64,000 nucleotides of DNA from Streptomyces fradiae (lineage in GTDB: Bacteria > Actinomycetota > Actinomycetes > Streptomycetales > Streptomycetaceae): positions 6,386,001-6,450,000 of the forward strand of contig NZ_CP065958.1 in assembly GCF_041270065.1 (NCBI RefSeq), given 5' to 3'. The position numbers were made by a program, and so were the translations under genes. Positions 8,788 to 17,006 of this stretch are shown piece by piece (positions within the stretch are counted from its first letter, which is position 1; the number at the start of each line of letters is the position of its first letter). Below the pieces are notes generated by a model. That model was not told the DNA's origin. It worked only from the letters and a program-made list of their open reading frames with translations, and did not search any database.

Positions 8788-10302
8788 ATGAGCCCGATGA
8801 ACGCGAACGCGCAGCAGGTCGCGGGCGGTCCCGAGGTCGTCGTCGTGGGCGGCGGCATCTCCGGTCTCGCCGCGGCGCACCGACTCGTCACCGCGGGCGC
8901 CCGGGTGACCCTCCTGGAGGGCGGCGACCGGATCGGCGGAAAACTGCTCGCCGGGCAGATCGCCGGCGCCCCCGTGGACCTCGGTGCCGAGTCGCTGCTC
9001 GCCCGCCGCCCCGAGGCCGTCGCGCTCGCCGAACGGGTCGGCCTGGCCGGCCGCATCCAGGCCCCCGCCACCACCACCGCCTCCGTCTGGTCCCGCGGCG
9101 AGCTCGTGCCCATGCCGAAGGGCCATGTCATGGGCGTCCCCGCCGACGGCCGGGCCGTCGAGGGGCTGCTCTCCGCCGAGGCGGTCGAGCGGATCGGCCG
9201 CGACCGCGAACTCCCGCCGACCGAGATCGGCGAGGACATCGCCATCGGCGCGTACGTCGCCGAGCGCATGGGCCACGAGGTCGTCGACCGGCTCGTCGAA
9301 CCCCTCCTCGGCGGCGTGTACGCGGGCGACGCGTACCGCATCTCCATGAAGGCCGCCGTCCCCGCGCTCTTCCACGCCGCCCGCGCGCACGCCACCCTCG
9401 GCGAGGCCGTCCGCGCCGTGCAGCGGGCCGGCGCGGCCACCCCGAGCGACGCGGCCGGCGCCGGTACGGGCCTGGGCGGGGCCGGTTCCACCGCGGGCCC
9501 CACGCCGGGCCCCGGCGGCGCCCCCTTCGCCGGCCTCGAAGGCGGCGTCGGCACCCTCCCGCTCGCCGTCGCCGACGCGATCCGCGCCGCCGGCGGCACG
9601 ATCCTGACCCTTACCCCGGTCACGGAACTGCGCCGCACCGGCGCGACCGGCGGCTGGCAGGTCGTGACCCCGGACCGTACGTACACCGCCGACGCCGTCG
9701 TCCTCGCCACCCCCGCCGGGCCCGCCGCCGCGCTCCTCGGCGCCCACGCCCCGGCAGCGGCCACCGAACTGGCCGCCGTCGAGTACGCCTCCATGGCCCT
9801 GGTGACCCTCGCCTTCCAGCGCAGCGAGATCTCGGCCCTCCCGGGCTCCGGCTTCCTCGTCCCGCCCGTCGACGGCCACACCATCAAGGCCTCCACCTTC
9901 TCCAGCGCGAAGTGGCGCTGGGTGACCGACGGCGCCCCCGACCTCTTCGTCCTGCGCACCTCCGTCGGCCGGCACGGCGAGGAGGCGCAGGTGCACCGCG
10001 AGGACGCCGACCTCGTCGACGTCTCCCTCAAGGACCTGGCCGCCGCCACCGGACTCACCGCCCGGCCCGTCGCCTCCACCGTGACCCGCTGGCTCGGAGG
10101 GCTGCCCCAGTACCCGGTCGGCCACCTCGCCCGCGTCGAGCGGATCCGCGCCGCCGTCGCCGGCCTGCCCGGACTCGCCCTCGCGGGCGCCGTCTACGAG
10201 GGCGTCGGCATCCCCGCCTGCGTCGCCTCCGCCGAGCGCGCGGCCGACGAGATCATCGCCACGTCGAAAACCACCCACCCTGGTGCGGGGCACGCATCGT
10301 GA
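8788..10302 (+). CDS. hemG: HemY-type porphyrinogen oxidase (coproporphyrinogen III oxidase, CgoX)
   Basis: 504 residues. The N-terminal FAD dinucleotide motif [16 protein letters not shown] is followed by [10 protein letters not shown], which is typical of the HemY/PPO/MAO superfamily. The C-terminal FAD motif is around [21 protein letters not shown]. Residues of about 215-255 are a Gly/Ala/Pro-rich insert not expected in the core fold. In Actinobacteria HemY homologues oxidise coproporphyrinogen III to coproporphyrin III, so the older name protoporphyrinogen oxidase is probably misleading. The gene lies 17 bp upstream of hemQ, almost certainly in one operon. Confidence 0.93.
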
Positions 10303-10319
10303 CGGGCGAGAATAGGCGT

Positions 10320-11033
10320 ATGAGTGCGCCCGAAAAGATCCCGAACGCCGGTAAGAAGGCGAAGGACCTCAACGAGGTCATCCGCTACACCCTGTGGTCT
10401 GTGTTCAAGCTGCGCGACGTTCTGCCCGAGGACCGGAGCGGCTACGCCGACGAGGTCCAGGAGCTGTTCGACCAGCTCGCCGCCAAGGACATCACCATCC
10501 GCGGCACGTACGACCTGTCCGGTCTGCGCGCCGACGCCGACGTGATGATCTGGTGGCACGCCGAGACGAGCGACGAGCTCCAGGAGGCGTACAGCCTCTT
10601 CCGCCGTACGAAGCTGGGCCGCGCCCTTGAGCCGGTCTGGTCGAACATGGCGCTGCACCGCCCCGCCGAGTTCAACAAGTCGCACATCCCGGCCTTCCTG
10701 GCCGACGAGACCCCCCGCGACTACGTCTCGGTCTACCCGTTCGTGCGCTCGTACGACTGGTACCTGCTGCCCGACGAGGACCGCCGCCGGATGCTCGCCG
10801 ACCACGGCAAGATGGCCCGCGGCTACCCGGACGTGCGCGCCAACACGGTCGCCTCCTTCTCGCTCGGCGACTACGAGTGGATCCTCGCCTTCGAGGCCGA
10901 CGAGCTGCACCGCATCGTCGACCTCATGCGTCACCTGCGCGGCTCCGAGGCGCGGATGCACGTCCGCGAGGAGATCCCGTTCTACACCGGCCGCCGCAAG
11001 AGCGTCGCCGACCTGGTGGCGGGCCTGGCCTGA
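10320..11033 (+). CDS. hemQ: Coproheme decarboxylase (HemQ/ChdC)
   Basis: 237 residues from the ATG at 10320. It belongs to the chlorite-dismutase superfamily. The actinobacterial hallmarks are [14 protein letters not shown], whose first Tyr is the likely radical residue, and the proximal haem His in [15 protein letters not shown]. It decarboxylates coproheme to haem b as the last step of the coproporphyrin-dependent pathway. Start choice: homologues begin with a short Ser/Pro/Lys leader, and the upstream cistron ends 17 nt before. It is a peripheral cytosolic enzyme that needs peroxide. Confidence 0.95.
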
Positions 11034-11056: not shown

Positions 11057-11089
11057 GGTCACCGCCCGGCGCCCAGCCGGGCGGTGACC
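11057..11089. terminator. Bidirectional terminator between hemQ and the secreted hydrolase
   Basis: GGTCACCGCCCGGC (11057-11070) pairs perfectly with GCCGGGCGGTGACC (11076-11089) around a 5-nt loop. It sits 24 bp after the hemQ stop and includes the stop codon of the convergent hydrolase gene, so it can serve both transcripts. Confidence 0.85.
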
Positions 11090-12738
11090 CCTTGACCCGG
11101 AAGATCAGACGGCCGGCGAAGCTTCGCCGCCCGCTCCAGCGACACCGGGTCCGGCTCCGGGTGCGGCGCGCATGACGCGCGCCGCACCGGCGTCCCTTCC
11201 GACGGGACCCTCGCCGCGTCCGGCACGGCGCCGGTGAGCAGATACCGCTCCAGATAGGCGTTCACGCAGGCGTTCGCGCCGCCCCCGATGCCGTGCGACC
11301 CGGCGTCCCGCTCGGTCACCAGCGCCGCGCCGCCCAGCCTGCGCTGCAACTCCAGGGCCCCTTCGTACGGCGCCGCCGCGTCCCGCTCCGCCGCCAGGAT
11401 CAGCACCGGCGGCAGCACCCCGGGCCCCGTCCGTACGTCCAGCGGCTTCTGCCGCGGCGTCGTCCAGTACGCGCAGGGCAGGTTCGCCCACACGTTGTCC
11501 CAGGTCTCGAACGGCGCCTGGCGCGCGAGCCGCGTGTTGTCCCGGTCCCAGAGCGCGAAGTCCTCGGGCCACGGCGCGTCGTTGCACTCCACCGCCGTGT
11601 AGACGGCCCCCGCGTTCCCCGGATCGGCCACCTCGGCGCCCTCCGCACGCCCGGGCGGCGGATCGGCCGGACCCGCCTGCGCGACCAGCGGCTTCGGATC
11701 GCCCTTCAGATACGCGCCGAGGGCGCCCGCCCGCGCGGCCCAGAACCGGTCGTCGTACAGCGCCTGCAGCATCGCCGAATGCAGCTGCCCGGGCCCGACC
11801 TTCCCGCCCGCCGGCGCCGCCGCCAGCTCGGCCCGCACCTTCTCGTAGCTCCGCGCCACCTCGCCGGCCGTCGCGCCGAGCCCGTACACCTCGTCGTGCT
11901 TCGCCGCCCACGTACGGAAGTCCGTCCAGCGCCGCTCGAACGCCAGCGACTGGTCGAGGTTGTTCACGTACCAGACCTGCTCCGGCGCCGGGTTCACCGG
12001 CGCGTCGAACACCATCCGCCGCACCCGGTGCGGGAACAGCGACGCGTACAGGGCCCCGAAGTACGTGCCGTAGGACGCGCCCATGTACGTCAGCCGCCGC
12101 TCGCCCAGCGCCGCCCGCAGCACCTCCAGATCGCGGGCGTTGTTCAGCGAGTGGTAGTGCCGCAGGGCCGCGCCCGTACGCCGGGCACAGCCGTCGGCGT
12201 ACGTCTTGGCGCGCGCGATCCGCTCCTGCTTGAACACCTCCGACGGCACGGTGGGCGCGAGCGTCGGCCCCTTCGTACGGTCCGCCGGGTCCTGGCACGA
12301 CACCGGCGCCGACCGGCCCACCCCGCGCGGGGCATAGCCCACCAGGTCGTACGCGGCGGAGATCCGCTGCCAGGCCGGGAGCCCGGCGGCCAGCGGGAAG
12401 TACGTCGACGAGGCCCCCGGCCCGCCCGGGTTGTAGACCAGGGCGCCCTGCCGCTCGGCCGCCGGCCCCGAGGCCTTCACCCGGCTGACGGTGAGCGGGA
12501 TCCGGGTGCCGTCCGGGTCCGCGTAGTCCAGCGGCACCCGCACGGTGCCGCACTCCACCGGCGCCGGCAGCTTCTCTGCCTTGGCACAGGGCCCGAAGGC
12601 GATCCCCGCGGCCGCCGCGGCCCGGGCGGCGGCGGTGACGCCCCGGCTCTCGGAGGGCGGGGCGTCGGCGCGGGGCACGGCGACGGCGGTGGGCGCGAGG
12701 AGAGCGGACAGCACGAGCGCGACGGACTTCATGCGCAT
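11059..12738 (-). CDS. Secreted alpha/beta hydrolase, tripeptidyl aminopeptidase (TAP) type
   Basis: 559 residues. A Sec signal peptide is visible (KSVALVLSALLAPTAVAVPRADA). The fold has NPGGPGAS (oxyanion region), the nucleophile elbow YMGASYGTYFG (Ser near residue 215), the acid in ILAAERDAAAPYEG and the His in DAGSHGIGGG, matching S33-family peptidases of the Streptomyces TAP/SlpD/SlpE group. Cysteines in FGPCAKAE and VECGTVRVP suggest disulfides. Members remove N-terminal peptides or amino acids outside the cell. It is 60 bp downstream of the TIGR04222-type genes on the same strand, so it could mature or trim their products; that link is inference. Confidence 0.85.
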   Translation of the reverse strand: MRMKSVALVLSALLAPTAVAVPRADAPPSESRGVTAAARAAAAAGIAFGPCAKAEKLPAPVECGTVRVPLDYADPDGTRIPLTVSRVKASGPAAERQGALVYNPGGPGASSTYFPLAAGLPAWQRISAAYDLVGYAPRGVGRSAPVSCQDPADRTKGPTLAPTVPSEVFKQERIARAKTYADGCARRTGAALRHYHSLNNARDLEVLRAALGERRLTYMGASYGTYFGALYASLFPHRVRRMVFDAPVNPAPEQVWYVNNLDQSLAFERRWTDFRTWAAKHDEVYGLGATAGEVARSYEKVRAELAAAPAGGKVGPGQLHSAMLQALYDDRFWAARAGALGAYLKGDPKPLVAQAGPADPPPGRAEGAEVADPGNAGAVYTAVECNDAPWPEDFALWDRDNTRLARQAPFETWDNVWANLPCAYWTTPRQKPLDVRTGPGVLPPVLILAAERDAAAPYEGALELQRRLGGAALVTERDAGSHGIGGGANACVNAYLERYLLTGAVPDAARVPSEGTPVRRASCAPHPEPDPVSLERAAKLRRPSDLPGQGVTARLGAGR

Positions 12739-12798: not shown

Positions 12799-13581
12799 CT
12801 ACGGCCGGTGTCGGGTGTCATGTACCCGAAAGGCGGTCCGGAAGGCGGCCCGCAGCTCCGGTTCGAGCACCGCCGTGCCCCGGCGGGCCAGGGCCGTCAT
12901 CGGGTCGCGGGGCGAGAGCTCCGCGAGCAGCCGGCGCCCGGCGGGGGAGGCCCAGCAGCCGGGCGCGTCGGCGCGGGCGACCAGCAGGCACAGGCCCGCC
13001 GCGAGCAGCGGCAGCGCGAACCAGGCGAGCACCGGGCCGCGTTCGCCCTCCGGCACCAGCAGTGCCGCCGCCGCGCCGAGCCCCAGGGTCAGCAGGAACG
13101 CGGCCCGCAGTCCCCGGCCGCCCGCCACCGTGGCCCGCCGCGCGGGCTCCGGCAGCGCGAGCCCGCGCGCCACCAGGCCGTCCGCGAGCGCCCGTACACA
13201 GGCCGCCTCGGCCACCAGCGGCCGGACCGCCGGGATCGGCGACTGCCCGTCCGGGCCGATCGCCCCGAGCACCGTCCGCTCCAGCTCGTCCCGCCCGCCG
13301 GCCGCGTCCACGACCGTCGCCCAGCCGGTGTGCGCGAGCAGCACGAGCCGCGCCCGGTGCAGGCTCACCAGGGTCAGGTCGGCGACCCGCAGCGGCCCGC
13401 CCGCGAGGTACGCCGCCTCCAGGACGGTCAGTTCGGGCGCCGCGCCCCGCCCCAGCAGGTCGGCCGTGACGGCGTCCCGGCAGGCCCGCGCGCAGGCGAT
13501 GCCGGTGACCACGAGGGCGACGAGGAACAGCGGGACCCAGACCATGATCCGGTTGTACGGCAGCGGGGCCGGGCCCGCCAC
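12799..13581 (-). CDS. TIGR04222-type membrane protein, short form
   Basis: 260 residues from a GTG at 13581; an ATG at 13545 is possible but lacks a ribosome-binding site. It has an N-terminal transmembrane span (VWVPLFLVALVVTGIA), two central spans (about 162-178 and 182-200), and a middle soluble segment whose motifs (AAYLAGGPLRVADLTLVSL, IPAVRPLVAEAA) match the neighbouring longer protein. It is a paralogue of the 13624-14646 product but lacks the cysteine tail. The end is RVHDTRHRP. It is likely co-transcribed (42 bp gap), and its function is unknown. Confidence 0.75.
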   Translation of the reverse strand: MAGPAPLPYNRIMVWVPLFLVALVVTGIACARACRDAVTADLLGRGAAPELTVLEAAYLAGGPLRVADLTLVSLHRARLVLLAHTGWATVVDAAGGRDELERTVLGAIGPDGQSPIPAVRPLVAEAACVRALADGLVARGLALPEPARRATVAGGRGLRAAFLLTLGLGAAAALLVPEGERGPVLAWFALPLLAAGLCLLVARADAPGCWASPAGRRLLAELSPRDPMTALARRGTAVLEPELRAAFRTAFRVHDTRHRP

Positions 13582-13623
13582 CGGAAAACGGTCCTAGGGC
13601 CTGTCCGGCGCCCCAGGAGCGCA

Positions 13624-14646
13624 CTACGAGCTGGAACCGCAGCTCGAACCGCTGCTGGAGGAGCAGGAACTGCCCGACGAGGACGAGCACGAACTGCCGC
13701 TGGACGAGGAGCAGCCGCTGACGCCGCCGCCCCCGGAGCACGAACTGCCGCTGGAGCACGAACTCCCGCCGCCCCCGCAGCCGCCGCCCTCGCCGCCGGC
13801 CGCCGCCGCGCACCACATCACGGGCAGCAGGGCGGCGTCGGACGAGGACGAGGAGGTGGACGGGTGGTGGTGGTGCGCGGCGGAGCGGCGCGGCGGCGGC
13901 GCCGGGCGGTAGCTGCGGGCCGTCGTGGCGAGCTGGTCGCGCAGTACGGGGTCGGGCAGCCCGGGCAGGCCCTGCAGGGTCACGAGCAGGGCCGGGTCCG
14001 CGACGGCCTGCGACCGGGCGAAGGCGTCGACCGCCGCCCGCCCCGCCGGAGTGACCCGCCGCTTCCCCGCGACCGCGCACATCACGGCCGCGGTCAGCGT
14101 GACCGCGAGCACCGGAAGCACCTTCAGGACGAAGGGCACCTGCCGCGGCCCGAAGCCGACGAGGTCGGGCAGCGAGAACATCAGGGCGAACAGCGTCGCC
14201 ATGCCGCAGAACATGCCCACGAAGGCCCCCCACACGCCCGCCGAGCGGCACGCCCGCGGCTGCAGGATCAGCCCGCGCGCGGCGAGCCCGTCGCCGATCT
14301 CCTGCACCGCCGGGTGCCGCATCACGGCGAACCGCAGCGGGCCAAGGGCCGCCGTCAGCGCACTCGACAGCTCCTGGAGGACCGCCCGCTCGACCGGGTC
14401 GTACGCGGTCGGCCGCAGCACCTGCACGATGCCGGGGCCGCCCACCATGAGCCGCCCGTCCGCATGCAGGGCGGTGATCGCCGTGTCGGCGACCCGGGCC
14501 GGGCCGCCGTTGAGGAACGCCGTCTCGTAACGGTCGTGCACCGCGACGCCGCCGGGCGGGGTGCGCCGGATCCGGCGCAGCTTGGCGACGAGGACGGCGG
14601 CGAACGGAGTGAAGAACAGGTAGTAGAGGAAGGCGATGGTGTTCAC
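13624..14646 (-). CDS. TIGR04222-type membrane protein with Cys/Ser/Gly tail, probable MNIO substrate
   Basis: 340 residues from a GTG that overlaps the stop of the DUF692 gene (GTGA). There is an N-terminal membrane span (1-20), a soluble domain ([39 protein letters not shown]) and two spans at about 150-200. A His/Ser linker ([12 protein letters not shown]) leads to a 57-residue tail (284-340) containing only Gly, Ser, Cys and a few others. Seven cysteines lie near 290, 297, 303, 312, 320, 328 and 336, the last four exactly eight residues apart. The domain is membrane-anchored; direct overlap with a DUF692/MNIO gene suggests that the tail cysteines are modified. What the modified tail does (metal binding, redox, signalling) is unknown. 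Confidence 0.8.
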
Positions 14647-16040
14647 TCCTTCTCACCCCTTCCCAGTGCGGTCTTGCCCAGTGCGGTCTTGCTCAGTGCG
14701 GTACGGATCCGGTGGCCGAGGCGGGCCGCCGGGCCGGGCGGCCGGATGCCCGCCCGTTCCCGCCACCAGGCGGTGAGGCGGGCGCGGGCCGCGTCGTCCT
14801 CGGGGCGGCCGGCGACGAGCAGCGTCTCGACGAAGTCGAGGGCGTCGTGCCGGTAGCCGTCGGTCATGGAGCGCTTCCGGGCATACGCGAGGAAGGCCGG
14901 CCGGTACTCCGCGCCGAGGATCTCCGGCAGCTCCGGCGCCACCTTCGCCACCACGTCCGCCCGCTTGGCCGCGAGCGCCCGGCTCTGCACGCCGAGCCGC
15001 TTCACGTCGAAGCCCTCCGGCGCGGGCGTCCCGGCGACCAGCGCGGAAAGCAGCGCGGCCTCGGCGAGGCCGACCCGCTGCCGGGCCGCCGCCGCGTCGA
15101 CCGTACGGGGTGGGGGCACGGGTGCCGGCGTGCGTACAGGCACGGGCGCGACCGGCATCGCGCCGCCCGAGGCCCGGGCGCCCGCGCCGATCAGCAGCGG
15201 CCGGGACCGGGCGGTCTCCACCGTCGTACGGATCGCGGCCAGCTCGGCGGCCAGCTCCTCCGGCGCCGGGAACCGGTCGTCCCGCTCCAGGAGCACGCCC
15301 GGCGGGGCGACCCGCGCCGACAGGTCGGCGAGCACGTCGAGCACCGCCGGGGACACCGGGTGCGCGTGGGTGTCGTGCCAGACCCCGTCCCGCTCCAGGC
15401 CGCCCGCCACGTGCACGTACGCGAGGGACTCGACCGGCAGCGCGGACAGCGCCTCGGCCGGGTCCTCGCCCCGGTTGACGTGGTTGGTGTGCAGGTTGGC
15501 CACGTCGATGAGCAGCCGCACCCCCGTGCGCTCCACCAGCTCGGCCAGGAACTGCCCCTCCGTCAGCTCCTCGCCCGGCCAGGCGACCAGGGCGGCGATG
15601 TTCTCCAGGGCCAGCGGCACCGGCAGGGCGTCCTGCGCGATCCGCACGTTCTCGCAGAGCACGTCGAGGGCGTCCCAGGTGCGCGGCACCGGCAGCAGGT
15701 GCCCGGCCTCCAGGAGCGGCGTCGCGGTCAGCGGGCCCCCGGCCCGTACGAACGCGATGTGCTCCGTCACCAGCGGCGCCCCCAGCGCCTCCGCCTTCCG
15801 TGCGAGCGCGTCGAGCCGCCCGGCGTCGGGCCGGTCCGCCCCGCCGAGCCCGAGCGACACCCCGTGCGGCACGACGGTGACCCCGCGCCCCTTCAGCCGT
15901 ACCAGGGAGTCGGGCAGGTGGCCGGCGCAGATGTTCTCGGCGACGACCTCCACCCAGTCGACCCCGGCCAGCGCCTCGACCGCCTCCGCGATCTCCGGCC
16001 GCCACCCGATCCCGACCCCGAGCTTCTTCATGTCCCCCAT
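14643..16040 (-). CDS. DUF692/MNIO-family iron-dependent oxidase with extra C-terminal domain
   Basis: 465 residues from the ATG at 16040, which follows AAGGAGG by about 5 nt; a second ATG lies 9 nt on. Residues of about 5-285 are a TIM barrel with DUF692 metal-ligand motifs in order: VVPHGVSL (His59), VTEHIAF (His94), [36 protein letters not shown] and LLERDDR. A Pro/Ala linker (about 300-325) precedes a helical C-terminal domain (about 330-450). The family (MbnB, TglH and relatives) uses two or three irons to oxidise Cys residues of ribosomal peptides. The C-terminal domain could present the substrate, as MbnC-type partners do; this is inference. The end carries a repeated KTALG. Confidence 0.88.
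14664..14706 (-). repeat. 15-bp tandem repeat at the 3' end of the MNIO gene
   Basis: On the plus strand CAGTGCGGTCTTGCC (14664-14678), CAGTGCGGTCTTGCT (14679-14693) and a partial third copy follow one another. They encode the repeated pentad [10 protein letters not shown] just before the C terminus. The array stays in frame at any copy number. Confidence 0.9.
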
Positions 16041-16157
16041 GTCCCCCTCCTTCGGTCCCTGGGGTGATGGCCCCGAAGCCGTCGTTCGAATCCGCACCGC
16101 CGCACCTTCAGAGCTTGATTTGAGGTTCGCGGCACGGGATGCCCATGGTGGTGGGAC

Positions 16158-16244: not shown

Positions 16245-17006
16245 ATGGACTGGCCGATCGCGGAGGTCGCCCGGATGTCGGGCGTGACCGCCCGGACCCT
16301 GCGGCACTACGACGAGATCGGCCTGCTGCCGCCCGCGCGGATCGGCTCCAACGGCCACCGCTACTACGGCGAGCGCCAGCTGCTGCTCCTGCAGCAGATC
16401 CTCGTCCTGCGCGGGCTCGGCCTCGGCCTCGATGACATCGGCCGGGTCCTGGCCGAGCAGGTCGACGAGGTGGCGGCCCTGCGCGGGCACCACCGGCGGC
16501 TGCTCGCCGAACGGGACCGGCTCGACACCCTGGCCGCCACCGTCTCCTGCACGATCGCCGAACTGGAGCAGTCCAGGAAGGACGACGCGCCCATGACCGT
16601 CAACCGCCCCGAGAACCTGTTCGACGGCGTCCGGCCCGCGCAGTACGAGGAGTCCCTGCGCGACTTCCCCGAGCACGCCGAAGCGGTCGCCCGCCGGGTC
16701 GCCGCGATGACCCCCGAGGACATCGAGGCCGGGCAGCGCGAGCGCACGGCCCAGATGATCCGCCTCGCCGAACTCATGGCCGCGGGCCACCCCGCCGACG
16801 CCGAGCCCGTGCGGGCCGAGATCGACGCCCAGTACCGGGCCCTGATCGCGCTGCGCCCGGTGACCGCCGAGGAGTACCGCGCGATCGGCCGCTCCTGCGT
16901 CGACAACCCCGCCTGGCGCGCGGCCTACGAGGCCGTCGCGCCCGGCCTGGCCGCGTACCAGCGGGACGCCATCGAGGCCCATGCCGCGAGCCGGCTCGGC
17001 GACTGA
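16245..17006 (+). CDS. MerR-family regulator with TipAS-like ligand domain
   Basis: 253 residues. The winged HTH (1-70; PIAEVARMSGVTARTLRHYDEIGLL) is followed by a coiled-coil dimerisation helix (about 75-110) and an all-helical C-terminal domain of about 140 residues (FDGVRPAQYEESLRDFPEHAEA...) like the antibiotic-recognition domain of TipA. An internal ATG at codon 117 (MTVNRPENLFDG) marks the domain boundary and could in principle give a TipAS-like short form. It is expected to bind drug-like ligands and activate the palindromic promoter just upstream. No obvious efflux target is adjacent. Confidence 0.9.
   Translation: MDWPIAEVARMSGVTARTLRHYDEIGLLPPARIGSNGHRYYGERQLLLLQQILVLRGLGLGLDDIGRVLAEQVDEVAALRGHHRRLLAERDRLDTLAATVSCTIAELEQSRKDDAPMTVNRPENLFDGVRPAQYEESLRDFPEHAEAVARRVAAMTPEDIEAGQRERTAQMIRLAELMAAGHPADAEPVRAEIDAQYRALIALRPVTAEEYRAIGRSCVDNPAWRAAYEAVAPGLAAYQRDAIEAHAASRLGD

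Follow-up and report, generated by a model that had tools for sequence, protein, structure and literature searches.

Association of an MNIO enzyme carrying a partner-like domain with cysteine-tailed membrane proteins at a Streptomyces fradiae locus and its relatives

A 64,000-nucleotide stretch of the Streptomyces fradiae genome (RefSeq assembly GCF_041270065.1, contig NZ_CP065958.1, positions 6,386,001 to 6,450,000; hereafter the window) contains a minus-strand operon in which the gene of an MNIO (DUF692) enzyme, from a family of iron-dependent enzymes that modify peptides, adjoins that of a TIGR04222-type membrane protein (Table 1). The first-pass annotation had described a GTGA overlap between the enzyme gene and that of a TIGR04222 protein ending in a 57-residue Gly/Ser tail with seven cysteines, and this was confirmed by profile searches and by the sequence itself. 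The junction reads GAAGGAGTGAACACC on the minus strand, the TGA stop codon of the MNIO overlapping the GTG that begins the following gene, whose 340-residue product scored 133.4 bits against a curated NCBIfam cut-off of 43. The tail cysteines occupy positions 290, 297, 303, 312, 320, 328 and 336, and an eighth, Cys279, lies outside the tail in a Trp-Cys pair. The tail-less second TIGR04222 protein and the TAP-type hydrolase that were said to come next on the same strand were likewise recovered. The C-terminal domain of the enzyme, the Trp-Cys pair and a motif upstream of the operon had not been part of that annotation. The source genome gave one PF05114 match and three TIGR04222 matches in profile searches, and the closest named locus was that of Streptomyces sp. 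SKN60, the MNIO of which is 95% identical.

The MNIO matched PF05114 over residues 8-273 with 256.8 bits (cut-off 25), and Foldseek placed it in the TIM-barrel fold, with TglHI, 3bww (a DUF692 protein) and MbnABC/MbnBC chains at ranks 1-9 (E 8.5e-19 to 3.1e-12); the TglH-TglI and MbnB-MbnC systems share this barrel. Eight residues (H59, H94, E146, D179, H210, D223, H225 and E252) were invariant across 39 aligned MNIOs and are of the type that we take to be MNIO metal ligands. The best NCBIfam match was BufB (NF050167), at 175.1 bits below the curated cut-off of 310.

Beyond the barrel, the model of the C-terminal domain ranked TglI and MbnC first and second among 254 re-aligned chains of solved structures. 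A PDB sequence search with this domain returned chance matches only, and Pfam matches to E 1 included none to DUF2063 (PF09836, the PME-type 1 partner) in the window MNIO. A profile of the domain matched 59 of the 60 MNIO loci searched, fused to the enzyme in 32 and as a separate downstream open reading frame (ORF) in 27; 27 of those loci had gone into building it, and among the remaining 33 it matched 32. The C-terminal domain of the MNIO is likely a partner domain, resembling the PME-type 2 kind. In TglH-TglI and MbnB-MbnC, unlike at the window locus, the partner is separate and larger (chains of 268 and 180 residues) and acts with the enzyme on a peptide.

Table 1. Features of the MNIO operon and its surroundings (window coordinates).
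Feature	Position	Strand	Remarks
MNIO (DUF692) gene	14643..16040	-	465 aa; C-terminal partner-like domain
MNIO catalytic barrel domain	15222..16019	-	residues 8-273; PF05114 E 2.7e-76 and Foldseek
TglI/MbnC-like C-terminal helical domain	14751..15095	-	fused to MNIO; about residues 316-430
GTGA overlap	14643..14646	-	MNIO stop / TIGR04222 start
Cys-tailed TIGR04222 membrane protein	13624..14646	-	340 aa; NCBIfam TIGR04222; putative substrate
TIGR04222 domain	13954..14604	-	residues 15-231; hydropathy indicates three membrane spans in most relatives
Trp-Cys (W278-C279)	13810..13815	-	directly ahead of tail; conserved
Gly/Ser/Cys tail	13627..13797	-	57 residues (284-340); seven Cys; putatively modified
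Upstream motif CCTCAAATNNNNCTCTGA of the MNIO operon	16108..16125	-	11-bp direct repeat CTC..CTC
Second TIGR04222 protein, tail-less	12799..13581	-	113.1 bits, cut-off 43
TAP-like alpha/beta hydrolase, next gene on the same strand	11059..12738	-	PF08386 E 1e-23; PF00561

The association of tail and enzyme was followed in a class sample of 296 genomes, of which 100 had TIGR04222 matches (74 above cut-off) and 66 had an MNIO; 100 regions were fetched. Sixteen of 77 PF05114 rows were left out: G292 (examined later among the G111-family loci below), three that scored 367-370 bits, two that scored 185-193 bits and ten weaker ones. For TIGR04222, rows that scored under the cut-off were omitted, together with G079 and the second pieces of split matches. 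A tail was at first scored when the last 60 residues held 3 Cys and were half Gly/Ser/Cys, which missed short tails, and finally when a 25-residue stretch within the last 70 held 3 Cys and was 75% Gly/Ser/Cys/His. The criterion was altered after the first result was known, and both outcomes are given. By the first, 34 of 53 MNIO-bearing genomes in the whole sample had a tail and 1 of 20 MNIO-free genomes did; the latter, G183, looks like an out-of-frame extension. By the final criterion, and with Streptomyces set aside, a Cys tail was present in 29 of the 31 MNIO-bearing genomes with fetched TIGR04222 loci vs 0 of 20 MNIO-free genomes (Fisher 3e-12), but these 51 genomes are not independent observations, because in a tree of 86 TIGR04222 domains the MNIO-free label is explained by only 4 changes. 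Counted by protein, again without Streptomyces, tails were present on 26 of 29 MNIO-linked TIGR04222 proteins; where the genome had an MNIO but the TIGR04222 gene was unlinked to it the count was 5 of 12, and in MNIO-free genomes it was 0 of 21. A same-strand Cys-tail ORF accompanied 31 of 36 MNIO loci outside Streptomyces, and none lay on the opposite strand at any of the 60 loci examined. The expectation that the tail would track the enzyme held outside Streptomyces and failed in a large Streptomyces clade that has an MNIO and no adjacent Cys tail; no Cys-tailed TIGR04222 protein occurred without a DUF692 gene in the 20 MNIO-free genomes by the final criterion. The link itself, which the first-pass annotation drew from gene overlap and composition only, stands and now draws also on this genome association and on similar tails borne by other proteins. 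On some TIGR04222 proteins of MNIO-free genomes (L078, L079, L080 and L089), Gly/Asp tails such as GGGDGGGGD replace Gly/Cys.

A search with the window enzyme gave 80 named loci, all Streptomyces including one labelled [Kitasatospora] papulosa, and at 68 of these a Cys tail adjoined the MNIO. Of the 12 without one, six (L148, L151, L155, L180, L182 and L183) are on public contigs that stop within 2.6 kb of the MNIO start; the final residues visible in L151 and L180 are the start of a tail, so the tail repeats may themselves break assemblies. A DNA pattern for Cys-Gly tails was also scanned across the 296 genomes; judged by eye it was no commoner than its reversed form and was dropped as uninformative. 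In the 68 tails the commonest spacing between cysteines was 6, and Trp-Cys occurred in 62 of them. Among the 571 cysteines the preceding residue was Ser in 388, Gly in 99 and Trp in 62, and the following residue was Gly in 321, Ser in 191 and Ala in 59. Lys stood beside none of the 571, on either side.

Similar tails were carried by proteins other than TIGR04222. Five MNIO loci without an adjacent TIGR04222 gene encoded a small single-span protein, placed between MNIO and partner in L096, L097, L101 and L102 and after both in L104, in which a transmembrane helix is followed by an Arg-rich stretch and a Gly-rich, Cys-containing tail that ends like the others. At 30 MNIO loci of the G111 family, which overlap the class sample, the adjacent tail carrier was TIGR04222 in 14, the single-span protein in 7 and a protein of about 450 residues in 2; three loci had a partner domain and no adjacent carrier, and four had no partner domain. 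Among the 14, L211 had no Cys tail and L205, L215 and L225 had short ones. One of the 450-residue proteins and one single-span protein had no Pfam match, two single-span examples had no NCBIfam match, and one relative of the single-span anchor was found, in Pseudofrankia sp. EUN1h. Because a single-span anchor and the 450-residue protein bear similar tails next to the same enzyme pair, it appears to be the tail, and not TIGR04222, that travels with the MNIO, and for the same reason the tail would be the likely target of the enzyme. These data establish the operon as a real and widespread system in which the Cys tail and the MNIO-partner pair belong together.

The location of the tail was considered from simple hydropathy and a positive-inside count rather than a trained predictor. 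Three canonical transmembrane segments were present in 172 of 206 TIGR04222 proteins. Because the inside counts span more residues, densities of Lys plus Arg were compared in 15-residue flanks: 0.193 per residue after segment 1, 0.198 before segment 2 and 0.181 after segment 3, vs 0.063 ahead of segment 1 and 0.048 for the loop that joins segments 2 and 3. A further hydrophobic stretch was found in 5 of 113 Cys tails. Since the basic residues cluster next to the segments on the face that also bears the soluble domain and the tail, the tail is probably cytoplasmic and not at the surface; the cell-surface device envisaged in the first-pass annotation found no support.

In Streptomyces, the MNIO was present in 58 of 61 genomes; it is presumably SCO6045. 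Besides the window, 24 Streptomyces MNIO loci of the class sample comprised 9 with an adjacent Cys-tail ORF and 15 without; in one of the latter (G208) the contig stops 647 bp past the MNIO match. A tree of 98 MNIOs (78 with a tail and 20 without; six contig-cut loci of the 80 were left out) placed 15 of the 20 tail-less rows together, the details being unsure owing to long branches and open forks. In pairs from this group dN was well below dS, indicating purifying selection on the MNIO. Eight tail-less loci (L005, L007, L008, L010, L018, L019, L022 and L025) have a membrane protein downstream of the MNIO, which in L005, the one example scanned, was DUF4142. As an alternative substrate this protein has its position as sole support, and it was set aside.

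The upstream motif CCTCAAATNNNNCTCTGA gave 58 exact sites in the 61 Streptomyces genomes and its reversed pattern gave 0. Of these sites, 46 were less than 400 bp upstream of an MNIO, 7 preceded a short TIGR04222 gene unlinked to the MNIO, and 5 were at what appears, from shared neighbouring ORFs judged by eye, to be the same second locus without the TIGR04222 gene; 12 MNIO-bearing genomes had no exact site. Seven unlinked TIGR04222 loci of the class sample were scanned as well: two had an exact site at the gene, one a site with one mismatch, two weak sites (3 and 4 mismatches) and two none. The last pair includes the source genome's own unlinked gene (L070, C1:6676433-6677074), with one tail Cys and no motif within 4 mismatches. 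By eye, a GC-rich inverted repeat, GGCCCGCC...GGCGGGCC, lies just downstream at the second motif loci L185-L196, also where the TIGR04222 gene is absent. HbpS-SenS-SenR was rejected as the regulator, the SenR sites described in the print sources seen being unlike the motif.

Next to the operon, and divergent from it, lies the gene of a MerR-family regulator that contains a TipAS antibiotic-recognition domain (16245-17006, plus strand). Convergent plus-strand genes at 8788-11033 resemble, as judged by reading, protoporphyrinogen oxidase (HemY) and HemQ, and HemY/HemQ-like ORFs also lie beyond the operon in many relatives. A short motif of the TAP-like hydrolase was present at 16 of 24 Streptomyces MNIO loci.

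The pairing of MNIO and TIGR04222, and the substrate idea, are already published. In the sections consulted, Antoine et al. 2025 (PMC12452194) report that TIGR04222 proteins encoded next to MNIOs can end in Ser/Gly/Cys tails, and propose subsets of them as substrates; the window locus has the same two families and the same kind of tail, and invites the same proposal. They also report that more than 1/4 of TIGR04222 proteins have no C-proximal Cys, that 490 of 1372 TIGR04222 genomes have no MNIO, and that PME-type 2 partners occur in at least 10% of TIGR04222 loci, many others being apparently partner-less. Their account, with likely periplasmic tails and many partner-less loci, differs from the present one, in which the tail is predicted to be cytoplasmic, a partner-like domain, often fused, accompanies 59 of 60 loci, and other carriers exist. 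A 2016 paper (PMC5183585) mentions a bacteriocin-type cluster of Pseudonocardia that includes a TIGR04222 peptide, predicted there to be processed as a ribosomal peptide; the passage on that cluster mentions a sulfur transferase and nucleases and no MNIO, unlike the window operon. Only these two papers of the literature searched name TIGR04222, most subscription papers lying outside it. Bufferins and captophorins (BufB-BufC, FonBC; PMC13097082) likewise depend, as described there, on an MNIO and a partner acting on Cys-rich precursors, but those precursors are free peptides in which Lys-Cys or Cys-Lys motifs occur, and the partners are of the DUF2063 (PME1) type, whereas the window system has a membrane-tethered tail with (S/G)C(G/S) motifs and no DUF2063 match. 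The fused partner-like domain, the tails on other carriers, the predicted cytoplasmic placement and the shared upstream motif are what the present analysis adds; no other report of a single-span carrier or fused partner was found in the literature searched (mostly non-subscription papers, supplements excluded).

These observations can be joined into one model, to which we assign a probability of roughly 55%: an MNIO with a built-in partner domain would modify a flexible cytoplasmic C-terminal tail, borne by a membrane protein of the same operon, into a metal or redox device. The enzyme would bind the tethered protein through its partner domain and oxidise the cysteines of the repeated (Ser/Gly)-Cys-(Gly/Ser) tail, perhaps also that of the preceding Trp-Cys. 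Because the nearest named family is BufB, the product would probably be 5-thiooxazole-like or a related four-electron product. It would remain on the inner membrane face as a metal-binding, most plausibly copper-binding, or redox device. Modification of the tail is likely, and we lean towards the tail being the substrate of this MNIO. A role in copper is possible but doubtful; the characterised MNIO products in the literature compared are, as far as those sources describe them, peptides, and several bind copper.

A view confined to cysteines does not account for part of Streptomyces. The clade that keeps its MNIO under purifying selection beside no Cys tail, the motif-linked TIGR04222 genes with only 0-4 tail Cys, and the four-change tree all weigh against the model. 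The clade, together with the near-universal MNIO of Streptomyces, would be explained if the enzyme acted on another, unlinked peptide or protein common to the genus and the Cys-tailed protein were a co-regulated neighbour whose unmodified thiols bind metal or form disulfides. We regard this as unlikely, since similar tails lie beside MNIO and partner on three carriers and, by the final criterion, none of the 20 MNIO-free genomes examined has one. The small number of changes on the tree, and the low-complexity composition of the tail, would suit instead an expansion-prone Gly/Ser/Cys repeat linked to the MNIO by shared ancestry and not by substrate recognition. The prevalent spacing of 6, the recurrent Trp-Cys and again the recurrence of such tails on different carriers beside the enzyme pair make this very improbable.

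A modified tail could also be exposed extracellularly and serve there as a metal or redox device. The first-pass annotation suggested a cell-surface role of this kind, and the periplasmic placement stated for TIGR04222 tails in the portion of PMC12452194 consulted implies one. The charge bias across the canonical three-segment proteins opposes this, as does the order of transmembrane helix, Arg-rich sequence and tail in the single-span anchors, and we consider an external tail decidedly unlikely. A broader proposal may be put forward tentatively, at somewhat less than even odds: the Gly/Ser/Cys tail would be a portable element, moved between unrelated carriers (three-span TIGR04222, single-span anchor and soluble-looking protein) and modified in place by MNIO-partner enzymes on whole proteins at the cytoplasmic membrane face, giving a tethered, protein-borne metallophore and not a released peptide.

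The partner-like domain bears on an issue left open by Antoine et al., namely how modification could take place at TIGR04222-type loci that apparently encode no partner. The upstream motif, which an unlinked TIGR04222 gene shares with the MNIO operon, offers a way into the question of when the system operates. If the model is true, MNIO chemistry would here be put to a different use, on a tail that stays attached to whole intracellular proteins, by an enzyme whose gene nearly all of the Streptomyces genomes sampled carry.
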